Shown here in pieces: positions 2,408 through 10,012 of a DNA stretch of 40,384 bases. Position 1 is the stretch's first letter. The number at the start of each line of letters is the position of its first letter. The translations under genes were made by a program, and so were the position numbers. The notes under the pieces are model-generated. The model did no database searches, was not told where the DNA came from, and was given only the letters and a program-made list of their open reading frames with translations. The stretch comes from Chitinophaga pinensis. Lineage in GTDB: Bacteria; Bacteroidota; Bacteroidia; NS11-12g; UBA9320. The DNA lies in NCBI GenBank assembly GCA_945897885.1, contig CAMDGU010000026.1, positions 1-40,384 of the forward strand, given 5' to 3'.

Positions 2408-3253
2408 TTAATTTATGGGTGGTAATGTTTTTAATAGAGAATTATAAAGCTTATTTTTTTCGGTTTCGCGTTTTTTTTCAGCCAGTTTGTAGGCTTTCAT
2501 AATGCCGCCTTTATAATAGCGGTTAAACCATGGATACACAGTAATCAATCCATCCAGAAGGGTGTACTTTAAGCTTATATCAACAAATAAAACGATAAAT
2601 GTCCCGCTAAGCAAAAAGGCATTGGCACTTTCTTTATAATAGCCACACCAAGCCTGCCCAAGTCCGGGAACAATGCTCATCCATTCCACCATGGTGGGAT
2701 TATACCGGCGGTTTGTTTTTTTAGTTTTTTTGAAAAACGATTGGATGGCTATTTTATCCAGGCTATCAATCACGGTAATGGACAAAAAATGATTTTTTGC
2801 ACCGGTGTATCGTCCGCTTTTGTAGTCCAAAGTCCCCATCATCAAATGAAGTTTATCGTTTACACGGCTGCTTATTTTGGTTTCGGGAATATTTAACAAT
2901 TCGTTATAGGCCATGATGGTATCATTGGCGGCCAGGTAGTTTAAAGCACTTTCAAAAAGTATTTCATAGCGGATGGTATCCACGGTTTGGTTGTTGTAGG
3001 CATTGTTGTAATGCACCGATGCTTTTTCAAAATCGCCAAGGTTGGAGTAGGCTCTGGCCAAAGGCAAGTAAATGGATTTGTTTTGTTTATCTGTTCCAAA
3101 AAACAATAATCGTTCATACACCTCAATGGCTGAAGTGTAATTGCCTTGTTGGCTGAAAGTTTCTGCCATAGTTTGGTATGTCTTCAGGTTGTTTTGACCT
3201 GAAACCGAGGCTGCAAAAAAGCTGCTGATAAAAATAAAATACCAAAATTTCAT
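2408..3253 (-). CDS. TPR protein with C-terminal membrane domain
   Basis: This 281-residue protein has a signal peptide (residues 1-19, ending SVSGQ), three to four TPR-like helical hairpins (about residues 25-150: FSQQGNYTSAIEVYERLL, YSNLGDFEKASVHY, DYKSGRYTGAKNHF), and a C-terminal hydrophobic domain opening with the motif IVPGLGQAWCGYY (about residue 193). That GLGQ motif is typical of small Bacteroidetes membrane domains of the DUF5683 sort. The tail is charged. The ATG overlaps the stop of the YidD-like gene (ATGA), so the two are translationally coupled. The likely role is a periplasm-facing scaffold in the inner membrane working with the YidD-like partner; this is inference from context. 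Confidence 0.8.
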   Translation of the reverse strand: MKFWYFIFISSFFAASVSGQNNLKTYQTMAETFSQQGNYTSAIEVYERLLFFGTDKQNKSIYLPLARAYSNLGDFEKASVHYNNAYNNQTVDTIRYEILFESALNYLAANDTIMAYNELLNIPETKISSRVNDKLHLMMGTLDYKSGRYTGAKNHFLSITVIDSLDKIAIQSFFKKTKKTNRRYNPTMVEWMSIVPGLGQAWCGYYKESANAFLLSGTFIVLFVDISLKYTLLDGLITVYPWFNRYYKGGIMKAYKLAEKKRETEKNKLYNSLLKTLPPIN

Positions 3254-3633
3254 TCTACAGGGTCTATATAAACTTTGTTCTCGGCATCATAAGGGTAGTT
3301 TTCATGACTCAAAGGATTGCACCGTGCAAAACGGTCAAAAAAATCAATAACCCCAATAATAACCCCATGTTTTTTAATACTTAAAAACGCAAACTCAGAG
3401 CAGGAAGGTGAAAACCCGCAGGATTGCCCGTCCTGAGTAGAAATGTAATGTTTGTAAAAGTGGAACAGGCTTTTTAATGCAGTGGTTCCATCTTTGGTAT
3501 CGCCTTTTAAAAAGGCAAAGGAATTTTGAGATACGGCAACGGTATCTTTTGAAATTAATAATTTGTTTAATGATTGTGCTTTGGAAAAACTACTCCAAAG
3601 TGTGATCATACATAGTATCGTTGCCGGTTTCAT
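3250..3633 (-). CDS. Exported YidD-like protein (DUF37/YidD family)
   Basis: The C-terminal half carries the YidD signature: CGFSPSCSEFA, then KHG, then RFARCNP. YidD proteins help YidC insert membrane proteins. Canonical members are about 70-100 residues and have no signal peptide; this one has 127, with an N-terminal hydrophobic segment ending SFSKAQ that looks like a cleavable signal and a linker of about 35 residues before the domain. If it is cleaved, the domain acts in the periplasm, an unexpected place for YidD. The ATG at 3633 lies inside the end of the LolA-like gene (44-nt overlap), and the stop overlaps the TPR gene start by 4 nt, so all three are tightly coupled. Confidence 0.85.
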   Translation of the reverse strand: MKPATILCMITLWSSFSKAQSLNKLLISKDTVAVSQNSFAFLKGDTKDGTTALKSLFHFYKHYISTQDGQSCGFSPSCSEFAFLSIKKHGVIIGVIDFFDRFARCNPLSHENYPYDAENKVYIDPVE

Positions 3634-4267
3634 TTATTACAATGTTTTTAAATTCGGTTATCTGTGTTGATTTTTGTTTGCCACTATACACGAAGGAAAC
3701 TACCCGCGAAGGAATGATTAAATTTTTAACGGTTACATACTCTTCAAAAAATTGCTTTGAAATAATGGTTCCTTTTACATCGTAGGATATCACGCCAAAT
3801 AGTTTTTTGTTTACACTCGATACTTTAATTTTTCCCTTCTTTTTCTTCATTTTAGCCGGAGGAATCCAGGTGGTAATAATCATGGAATCCTGTTTTTCGG
3901 TTTTACTGATGGTGTAGGGAGAACCTTTCAGTCCGTAGTAATCCAACTTACCGGTGAGGCAAAGATTAAACAACGAAAAGTCTAAAAATTCTTTAATGGA
4001 TTTAGAGGAAGTTCGTTTGTTATTTTGAAAAGATATATAAGCCGTGTCGGTAATAATCACGATGGCTTTTTCAGGAAAGGTAATATCGTATACCGCCTTT
4101 CGGGTATTTACATCGTAGTATAAAGTGCCTTTGGTAAGGTTAAATTTACCATCCAGTTTTTTTTCTTTGATGGTTACATTGGCTTTAAAACGGTAGTTCT
4201 GCTGAGCCATACTTGCCAAGGAAGCAAGAAGAAGCACCCAAACTAATATCCGTTTTTTTTGAAGCAT
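3590..4267 (-). CDS. LolA-like periplasmic protein (probable)
   Basis: I take the ATG at 4267 as the start, giving 225 residues. An in-frame extension up to 4309 would begin inside the promoter at 4279-4310. The N-terminus MLQKKRILVW plus a hydrophobic core ending SMAQQ is a clear signal peptide. The rest is beta-rich (FKANVTIKEKKLDGKFNLTK, then alternating strands) and looks like the LolA/outer-membrane lipoprotein-sorting fold, with an IIPSRVVSFVYSGK strand near the end; this assignment is by pattern only. It is the first gene of the LolA-like/YidD/TPR/kynU operon. A role in carrying or sensing lipidated or membrane proteins in the periplasm is inference. Confidence 0.75.
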   Translation of the reverse strand: MLQKKRILVWVLLLASLASMAQQNYRFKANVTIKEKKLDGKFNLTKGTLYYDVNTRKAVYDITFPEKAIVIITDTAYISFQNNKRTSSKSIKEFLDFSLFNLCLTGKLDYYGLKGSPYTISKTEKQDSMIITTWIPPAKMKKKKGKIKVSSVNKKLFGVISYDVKGTIISKQFFEEYVTVKNLIIPSRVVSFVYSGKQKSTQITEFKNIVINETGNDTMYDHTLE

Positions 4268-4278
4268 TTTGTCTTTTG

Positions 4279-4310
4279 CAAACATACTATAAAATGCCAA
4301 CGAGAACAAA
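4279..4310 (-). promoter_or_regulatory. Bacteroidetes-type promoter of the LolA/YidD/TPR/kynU operon
   Basis: On the minus strand TTTG (4310-4307) is followed, after exactly 20 nt, by TATGTTTG (4286-4279). This matches the Bacteroidetes -33/-7 consensus TTTG-N19-21-TAnnTTTG. Transcription should begin near 4272, only a few bases before the ATG at 4267, so the mRNA would be nearly leaderless. This decides the start of the first gene. Confidence 0.8.
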
Positions 4311-7832: not shown

Positions 7833-9131
7833 TTAATCAAAATCTGAAAACTCTTTATCGTCCGTTAGCCACTTTTTGATAACATTCATATCAAAAATGT
7901 TAAATCTTTTTTTGTTCTTATTTTCTTGTAAAACGGCATCTGTTCCGTCTTCCTTAATCAAATTTTCATTGTATAAAGCATCATTAAGCCCTTTCATTAC
8001 CAAGCCTATGCCTGTAGCATAAATGGGGCTTTTTACTTCTTCTACCATCCCTTTGGCAAGATGTTCGTTGGGATAACCAACACGGGCATCCAAGCCGGTA
8101 ACCAATGAAGCTAAATGGGTAATATGTTTTAGCATGGAACCTCCACCGGTAAGCACTATACCACCAGCCAATTTCTTTTCTAACCCAGATGATTTTACTT
8201 CAAAATAGACAAGTTCTAATATTTCCTGAAGGCGGGCCTGAATAATTTTGGCTAAGTTCTTAACCGAAATTTCTTTTGGGTCGCGACCTTTTAGACCGGG
8301 AATGGTTATTATTTCATTATCGGCAGCTTCACTTGCCAGTGCTGAACCAAATTTTGTTTTTAAGGCTTCAGCATGATTTTTCATCACATTGCACCCTTCT
8401 TTAATGTCTTCGGTAATAATATTACCCCCATAAGGGATGATGGCCGTGTGACGAATTACGCTATCATGAAAAATAGCCACATCTGTAGTTCCTCCACCTA
8501 TATCCACCAATACAATTCCGGCTTCCATTTCCTCTGGACTAAGAACAGACATTGCTGATGCCAGAGGCTCCAGTGTTAAGTCCGTTACTTTTAATCCTGT
8601 TTTTTCAACACATTTATAAATATTTTTTGCGGCAGTAATCTGACCTGTAATAATGTGAAAGTTTCCTTCCAATTTTACACCTGACATTCCAATTGGGTCC
8701 ATTATTCCCGGTTCGTCATCAACCATGTAATCTTGTGGAATGACATGTAAAATTTTATCACCCGGTTTTACAGCCAACTTATACATATCAGCTTCCAATC
8801 GGTCCAAATCTACCTGACTGATTTCTTTTTCAGAATCATTACGGATAAGCATACCGCGATGTTGCAGGCTATTGATGTGAGCACCTGCAATACCAACCTG
8901 AACATTTTTAATGTTTACATTTGCTACTTCTTCCGCCATTTTTACAGCTTCAGATATTGCAGCTACCGTTCGGTCAATATTTGATACTACCCCACGGGTT
9001 ACTCCCCCGTTTGATGGCACTTTTCCAATCCCAAGAATATCTACTTTTCCATATTCACTAGTTCGGCCAACTATGGCGCATATTTTAGTTGTTCCGATAT
9101 CAAGACCTACTACAATTTTTTGGTTGTTCAT
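7833..9131 (-). CDS. ftsA: Cell division protein FtsA
   Basis: An actin-like ATPase that tethers FtsZ to the membrane and recruits septal synthesis proteins. It has 432 residues, starting with the phosphate-1 motif VVGLDIGTTKICAIVG, a phosphate-2 motif VLVDIGGGTTDVAIF (about 210) and an adenosine motif GGIVLTGGGSMLKH (about 335). The C-terminus NVIKKWLTDDKEF could act as the amphipathic membrane helix. The ATG is at 9131, and a gap of 143 bp with a short palindromic repeat separates it from ftsQ, one of only two sizeable gaps in the operon. Confidence 0.97.
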   Translation of the reverse strand: MNNQKIVVGLDIGTTKICAIVGRTSEYGKVDILGIGKVPSNGGVTRGVVSNIDRTVAAISEAVKMAEEVANVNIKNVQVGIAGAHINSLQHRGMLIRNDSEKEISQVDLDRLEADMYKLAVKPGDKILHVIPQDYMVDDEPGIMDPIGMSGVKLEGNFHIITGQITAAKNIYKCVEKTGLKVTDLTLEPLASAMSVLSPEEMEAGIVLVDIGGGTTDVAIFHDSVIRHTAIIPYGGNIITEDIKEGCNVMKNHAEALKTKFGSALASEAADNEIITIPGLKGRDPKEISVKNLAKIIQARLQEILELVYFEVKSSGLEKKLAGGIVLTGGGSMLKHITHLASLVTGLDARVGYPNEHLAKGMVEEVKSPIYATGIGLVMKGLNDALYNENLIKEDGTDAVLQENKNKKRFNIFDMNVIKKWLTDDKEFSDFD

Positions 9132-9209
9132 GTGATACTTATTTTATTTTCATTTTTAATAAATGGCATTATCGAATCTACGATTTGTAATTTAATTTTA
9201 TTTTTAAAT

Positions 9210-9234
9210 CACGGACGCATGGGACGTCCAACGA
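9210..9234. repeat. Short palindromic repeat GGACGCATGGGACGTCC
   Basis: The sequence CGGACGCATGGGACGTCCAACG, in the ftsQ-ftsA gap, is a GC-rich imperfect palindrome in an otherwise very AT-rich spacer. It looks like a dispersed palindromic repeat of the type found in Bacteroidetes spacers; no second copy was seen in this window. Confidence 0.4.
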
Positions 9235-9274
9235 TATATTTGTTGCTAAAATTAAAATTTTCATGGCCGTTTCA

Positions 9275-10012
9275 TTATTTACAGATTACTTGTCCTTTAA
9301 ATTTTAAATTGATCGATTTGTATTTGTCCCACCCTATTTTGTTAAGTCCTCTTTTATAAAAGACTTCCAATTTTTTAAATTTTTCGTCCAGATTAGAAGT
9401 GTCGCCTAAAATTACTTCATGGACGCCGATATATGGAACAAATAAAATGTCTCGGTTCTCGTTCACAAAGAACTGCTGTATTTGGTTTTTCCAAAAGCTA
9501 TTATTATTAACAAACCCCACTATATAGTACAGTTGCCTGTCTATTTTATCGTTCACAAAACCTGTGGCTGGTATTAAATCAGGTGTAAAGTTATCCGAAA
9601 GGGGTATTTTAACCGTGTCTTCGCAAATGTAATAGCCTCTTCGGCCATTCGGTATTACCCTAAACATAGGGTTTCGCTGGGTTACTTCAATTTTTAAAAC
9701 TCCAGACATTCCGATATAAACTTCGGCACTTTTTATAGTTGAGTTTTTTAAAAGTTTGCTTTCCATTTCGTTCAATTTTAACTTACCTGCATTTTTACCT
9801 ATGAGTTGTGATTTACCTGCCGGAAAACCTAAAATCTGATAAATGTCTTTTTCGGTTAAAAGTGACTGGTCGGTTTTGTAATTTAGGGTTATGCTAACGT
9901 CTTTACATACCTCGCTATCACTGTTTTTTGTAGCAAAAAAATACAGGGCAATCAGCACTGCAGGAATAAGCAGTAGGAGTAAAAGTTTGCCAATATTTAT
10001 CTTTTTGCTCAT
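9275..10012 (-). CDS. ftsQ: Cell division protein FtsQ
   Basis: A bitopic divisome protein linking early and late division components. At 245 residues it has a short cytoplasmic tail, one membrane helix (about 8-27, LLLLLLIPAVLIALYFF), a POTRA-like region (about 35-115, with LLTEKDIYQIL and IGMSGVLKIEVTQRNPMFRVI) and a beta-rich C-terminal domain. Sequence conservation is low, as is usual for FtsQ, so position between murC and ftsA is strong supporting evidence. Its ATG overlaps the murC stop by 4 nt. Confidence 0.9.
   Translation of the reverse strand: MSKKINIGKLLLLLLIPAVLIALYFFATKNSDSEVCKDVSITLNYKTDQSLLTEKDIYQILGFPAGKSQLIGKNAGKLKLNEMESKLLKNSTIKSAEVYIGMSGVLKIEVTQRNPMFRVIPNGRRGYYICEDTVKIPLSDNFTPDLIPATGFVNDKIDRQLYYIVGFVNNNSFWKNQIQQFFVNENRDILFVPYIGVHEVILGDTSNLDEKFKKLEVFYKRGLNKIGWDKYKSINLKFKGQVICK

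Follow-up and report, generated by a model that had tools for sequence, protein, structure and literature searches.

A predicted exported YidD and its TPR–PGxG partners in Bacteroidota, Marinimicrobiota and Desulfobacterota

The cassette and its genes

On the minus strand of the window – the whole stretch of 40,384 nucleotides analysed here – lie three overlapping open reading frames, which encode a LolA-like protein (g1), a YidD protein and a TPR membrane protein in this order (Table 1). An earlier note on this DNA had described three genes overlapping by 44 and 4 nt, all with signal peptides and preceded by a Bacteroidetes promoter, and each of these points was borne out. Both overlaps were measured at these lengths, the longer one, between g1 and YidD, being identical in length in all seven members of the genus, and each protein begins with a hydrophobic segment followed by a small residue and then Q. 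The −7 box TATGTTTG is kept at the same position before g1 in 7/7 genus members despite changed flanks, with the complete TTTG-N20-TATGTTTG promoter in three of them; the motif alone occurs 6 times in the window against 4.87 expected, which is not significant.

A TTG start of g1 at 4309 was rejected because the conserved −7 box sits between this codon and the ATG. Rejected, too, was kynU as a part of the module: it begins 9 nt past the TPR gene, and it is probably a passenger, since it is missing behind the cassette in two genus members (G002 and G003), in which the window-type cassette is intact and the surrounding genes differ.

Table 1. Features of the cassette in the window
Feature	Position	Strand	Details
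Promoter, Bacteroidetes-type	4279..4310	-	TTTG-N20-TATGTTTG, immediately upstream of g1
g1, predicted exported LolA-like protein, 225 aa	3590..4267	-	ATG start; predicted signal peptide 1-21 (...ASMA/QQ), 4205-4267
YidD, predicted exported, 127 aa	3250..3633	-	predicted signal peptide 1-19 (...FSKA/QS), 3577-3633
YidD domain	3295..3477	-	C72, C78, C105 and KKHG
TPR2-class TPR–PGxG membrane protein, 281 aa	2408..3253	-	predicted signal peptide 1-19 (...SVSG/QN), 3197-3253
C-terminal PGxG membrane domain	2411..2698	-	relatives weakly DUF5683/TM2-like

The cysteine/KHG signature that had led to the YidD assignment was likewise recovered. The window YidD matches PF01809 at 60.5 bits (cut-off 27; residues 53–113) and TIGR00278 at 60.0 (cut-off 40), carries KKHG and has cysteines – C72, C78 and C105 – that are invariant in A2, the third of them being lost in the copies of families f18 and f36 and in most of those from Desulfobacterota. 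With the YidD insertion efficiency factor family it shares the domain, a conserved Tyr, Cys-x5-Cys-Ser and an Arg. Its structural model has a helical core, with block means of 72–86 from residue 71 onward; a search of PDB sequences with the YidD profile gave 0 matches, and Foldseek returned nothing for the model at E below 3.

For the third gene, the earlier description as a TPR-membrane protein agrees with a TPR_2 match of 33.9 bits (cut-off 27) and a C-terminal membrane domain that matches our PGxG-domain profile at E 1.1e-27, genus relatives being among the profile seeds. Like DUF5683 (PF18935) and TM2 (PF05154), to which it has weak Pfam matches, this domain consists of a PGxG motif and then hydrophobic segments; unlike them, it is joined to TPRs or to YidD, and the matches of its homologues all fall below cut-off (at best 21.8 against 26.7 and 21.9 against 27.9), with no DUF5683/TM2 match for the window protein itself in the Pfam search. 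True DUF5683 genes come after parB in L204, L200, L203 and L209, four loci from the taxonomic order to which the window belongs, and their neighbours gave no clue to function.

The side of the membrane

Ordinary YidD acts at the inner side of the membrane, beside YidC. The window copy departs from it on several counts. Where ordinary YidD has no signal peptide and a positive charge, the window protein has a predicted Q-rule signal peptide and a near-neutral core, and where the usual gene order is rnpA–yidD–yidC, its neighbours are g1 and the TPR–PGxG gene, while the canonical copy of the same genome comes after rnpA. The net charge of the core in the three YidDs of this genome is 0 (window), +3 (a second divergent copy, on contig C10) and +6 (canonical).

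Signal peptidase I substrates of Bacteroidetes typically expose Gln, unlike those of related phyla, as one study states (PMC5837995). Signal peptides were called here with our own hydropathy and pattern rules rather than with SignalP, and YidDs are called linked where a PGxG partner adjoins or is fused. A Q-rule site is present in 48/48 linked Bacteroidota YidDs as against 0/9 unlinked copies, in 3/16 linked YidDs from Desulfobacterota and 14/19 from Marinimicrobiota, and in 0/30 canonical YidDs, a set that leaves out L110, an exported YidD lying at the edge of its contig; like the charge comparison, these counts ignore the shared ancestry of the sequences. The mean net charge of the core is +0.81 in linked copies (n=93) compared with +5.72 in canonical relatives (n=29) and +6.10 in the second canonical set without L110 (n=30). 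The linked sample comprises 93 of 94 copies, L102–L107 having been dropped as repeats and L036 not included. In some lineages the shift is weak (+5 in f16 and f45, +4 in f34), and charge alone is therefore not decisive.

It could still be that the N-terminus is an uncleaved anchor, with the YidD domain inside the cell, working with YidC as any ordinary YidD does, and that the neighbours are coincidental. In favour of this reading, the domain is clearly YidD and retains the three cysteines. Against it, an ordinary YidD is already present directly behind rnpA, the linked Bacteroidota copies uniformly have Q-rule sites, the mean charge of the linked cores has dropped, and the partners are kept over three phyla and fused to YidD in 15 loci; we consider it highly improbable. 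The N-terminus resembles a cleaved Q-rule signal peptide, and even if uncleaved, its short, positively charged end would leave the YidD domain outside. Strong sequence evidence thus argues that this YidD is exported.

Linkage across three phyla

The 57 of 392 Bacteroidota genomes with at least two YidD matches, selected by eye from the tabulated matches, were searched again. In 48 of the 57 divergent second YidD loci a PGxG partner adjoins or is fused, and in nine it is not found. A PGxG-domain profile, iterated over the 2477 ORFs of 182 loci, retrieved 155 ORFs in 103 loci and matched none of the 61 canonical YidD loci (an earlier motif test had given 0/30). Divergent YidDs over the cut-off are found in 18 of 79 Desulfobacterota genomes, 16 of the 18 with a PGxG partner. 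They are also found in 28 of 70 Marinimicrobiota genomes, for 20 of which the divergent copies were examined (plus two others through L110 and L111): 14 combine a signal peptide, YidD and the PGxG domain in a single chain, five have separate YidD, TPR1 and TPR2 (the two partner classes described below), and one is truncated at the edge of its contig, so that 19/20 are PGxG-linked. Single-chain fusions number 15 altogether, namely L049 in Bacteroidota and L167–L180. The cultured species Desulfocicer vacuolatum likewise carries a linked copy (L154). Sub-cut-off fragments were left out of the Bacteroidota (G119:C37, G307:C93) and Desulfobacterota (G470:C46) searches. The neighbours, then, are conserved well beyond the genus, and an obligate pairing of exported YidD with PGxG partners is very likely.

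Some loci lie outside this pattern. No PGxG gene was found within the stretches examined of L145, L149 and L160; the last (in G431) carries a g1–YidD pair, with a complete cassette elsewhere in that genome (L108). Second YidDs at L045–L047, L052, L054, L096, L098, L099 and L101 were rejected as members, the stretches examined being without a PGxG gene, as were the family copies in L041–L043 on the same ground. At L096, L098, L099 and L101 (families f5 and f4) there is a different second YidD, without a convincing signal peptide, which overlaps a gene of 76–87 aa starting MEYKV; the two look like a separate conserved pair. A 177-aa YidD-like protein with an internal hydrophobic segment occurs in yet another context (L216:1528-2061, in G035).

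The distribution is patchy. PGxG-partnered exported YidD occurs in 26/26 genomes of f18 and 12/14 of f36, counts taken by eye from the YidD table and the loci, and is rare elsewhere. A profile built from 22 TPR–PGxG proteins (A10), searched against 198 Bacteroidota genomes, gave 50 matches of at least 115 bits in 25 genomes, the next matches scoring at most 59 bits and covering mostly the TPR part only. These 25 genomes are exactly those of the sample with an exported YidD; as A10 contains proteins from some of them, the absence elsewhere is the telling half of this agreement. All but one of the 50 matches (49/50) lie at a YidD locus. Most Bacteroidota thus lack the module, which therefore is not a general export factor.

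Such a spread would suit a specialised accessory, confined to certain lineages, that serves a single surface or secretion system. No constant neighbouring system accompanies the module, however, the same module is carried by Desulfobacterota and Marinimicrobiota, and the NCBIfam match to the T9SS protein PorW/SprE scores 13.9 against a cut-off of 250, all of which makes an accessory of this kind improbable. The gene behind f18 modules encodes an ACT-domain protein in both loci tested, which is uninformative.

Two classes of partner

Gene order in the module is fixed as YidD–TPR1–TPR2, with two classes of TPR–PGxG protein. In a tree of 154 PGxG domains (L002, L003 and L102–L107 being dropped as repeats of other loci), one branch with a support of 0.915 splits 52/52 first-position copies from 52/52 second-position copies. 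On the first-position side fall all 15 fusions, along with seven unlinked genes from the genus; on the second-position side are the window TPR protein and its genus relatives, as well as the single partner in 15/16 Desulfobacterota loci.

The unlinked TPR1-class gene of the window's genome lies behind accC (L214:4255-5088, on G000:C27) and is the one A10 match away from a YidD locus; each of the remaining six genomes of the genus likewise has an unlinked TPR1-class gene. From the tree placement and these unlinked genes it follows that the window cassette has no local TPR1, which is supplied in trans: the C27 gene completes the module of the window as its fourth component. Throughout the genus (G000 and G002–G007), TPR–PGxG genes are twice as many as exported YidDs in 7/7 genomes (4, 2, 2, 2, 4, 4 and 2 as against 2, 1, 1, 1, 2, 2 and 1, respectively).

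A second cassette in the same genome

Besides the ordinary YidD directly behind rnpA and the window copy, the genome encodes a third YidD on contig C10, as part of a paralogous cassette of a g1-like gene, YidD and two TPR–PGxG genes. Between the window and C10, the g1 paralogues are 23% identical (E 1e-11) and the YidDs 33% over 75 residues (E 2e-11); the window TPR protein matches the second C10 TPR protein (25%, E 6e-9), while its match to the first reaches only E 0.076. Whereas the window-type cassette occurs in 7/7 genus genomes, the C10 type occurs in three.

Flanking the C10 cassette (L044:3363-4953 and 8501-9439) are genes for an ABC ATPase that looks LptB-like by eye, for an outer-membrane barrel protein (PF13568) and for two small exported proteins, of which one is weakly TM2-like; a small protein resembling these comes after the cassette in L053.

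Among the possible functions is that of a chaperone in the periplasm which would assist the quality control or assembly of inner- or outer-membrane proteins, with the TPR arms as client receptors and g1 as an accessory. TPR proteins are typical scaffolds, and the barrel and ATPase genes next to the second cassette fit this idea, as does the ordinary YidD, which a table in PMC8082313 gives as a putative membrane protein insertion efficiency factor, on the strength of transport and crosslinking work. Yet the genes outside the module differ from lineage to lineage, and a chaperone of this sort is possible but, on balance, unlikely.

The LolA-like protein

That gene 1 is LolA-like, as first proposed, can be upheld as probable: weak profile and Foldseek matches favour it, although g1 itself has no LolA-type Pfam match in a profile search. 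Its paralogue on C10 reaches LolA_like at E 6.6e-4, below the cut-off, and homologues score 19.8 (cut-off 30) and 13.6 (cut-off 23.6) against LolA-type Pfam profiles. When 18 g1 sequences were aligned with 18 LolAs of related genomes in hhalign, the match had a probability of 84% (E 7e-6, 62 columns), as against 0.9% and 0.3% for control profiles; a search of PDB sequences gave a best E of 0.61. The AlphaFold2 model, built from 10 sequences, is poor (pLDDT 60.5). With this low-pLDDT model, the best Foldseek matches are of the LolA superfamily (3buu at E 3.6e-5, with a TM of only about 0.28; LolA3 of P. gingivalis at E 5.7e-4). VIA-align gives Z up to 6.4, but this fold match is not conclusive, because unrelated polo-box, CPAP and OspA chains score close to LolA. 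We take the protein to be a probable distant member of the LolA superfamily. Like LolA, LolA-like and DUF4292 proteins (PF03548, PF17131, PF14125), it has a signal peptide and the predicted order of strands and helices; unlike them, it has no Pfam match over cut-off and is linked to YidD, the true LolA of the same genome being encoded elsewhere.

Across Bacteroidota and Marinimicrobiota, 18 distinct loci have g1 immediately before YidD, and its profile matches nothing else within the loci collected. The profile finds no match in the modules of f18, f36 or Desulfobacterota. Most exported-YidD loci are without g1, and a LolA step therefore cannot be core to the module.

These observations bear on a further reading, a dedicated route for lipoproteins or lipid, alternative to LolCDE–LolA–LolB, in which g1 would be the carrier and YidD–TPR1–TPR2 the loading site in the inner membrane. 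The resemblance of g1 to LolA and its 44-nt overlap with YidD favour it. So do passages of two reports, according to which F. johnsoniae is viable without any LolA/LolB homologue (PMC11885536) and P. gingivalis may have alternative trafficking routes, which that study mentions (PMC13103446). On the other side stand the genome's own LolA and the modules without g1. Nor does the reading account for F. johnsoniae, should this species belong to f5, which makes up more of that class in the sample than any other family: all four second copies in f5 are unlinked, and no linked one was found. We find this reading rather doubtful.

A proposed working of the module

The sequences delineate a conserved, predicted exported module, made up of a secreted YidD and one or two PGxG proteins of the TPR1 and TPR2 classes, which in some Bacteroidota and Marinimicrobiota is joined by the probably LolA-like protein encoded directly upstream. 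The earlier reading of the locus as a periplasmic YidD module with LolA-like and TPR partners accordingly holds for export and for the conserved neighbours, while TPR1, the duplicate cassette and the fusions had been missed.

As the best explanation overall we propose a membrane-tethered periplasmic complex that handles clients or lipid, a proposal evenly poised between right and wrong as a whole, its function being read purely from domain resemblance. TPR1 and TPR2 would be anchored in the inner membrane by their PGxG hairpins, extend their TPR arms into the periplasm and hold YidD on that side of the membrane; a YidD that is fused to its partner would be tethered directly. There, the helix before its first cysteine and the C-x5-C pair, perhaps as a disulphide, may contact hydrophobic clients at the outer leaflet – membrane proteins, lipoproteins or lipid being the candidates – in what would be a mirror image of the action of cytoplasmic YidD. 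The handling of envelope clients or lipid at the outer leaflet falls a little short of an even chance. In modules that include the LolA-like protein, this would serve as an optional carrier, taking up cargo and carrying it across the periplasm; that lipidated cargo is passed to g1 is no better than a tentative suggestion. In its boldest form – an old four-part periplasmic machine of LolA-like carrier, exported YidD, TPR1 and TPR2, present in at least three phyla, taking up hydrophobic cargo at the outer leaflet and handing it on, so as to mirror the step of insertion by cytoplasmic YidD/YidC and perhaps to reach the outer membrane independently of Lol – the proposal is quite unlikely.

Among the matches listed in a literature search, titles and the openings of abstracts describe no exported YidD and no module of this kind. 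YidD is near-universal in Bacteroidota (388/392 genomes), its mechanism is poorly known, and an exported version would offer a handle on the activity of the domain: whatever activity the two forms have in common must work independently of ribosomes and of the cytoplasmic side of YidC. The module would provide a natural YidD relocated across the membrane, which is kept with constant partners and in some loci fused to them, and is a candidate for envelope biogenesis in phyla where the lipoprotein and outer-membrane pathways are only partly understood.
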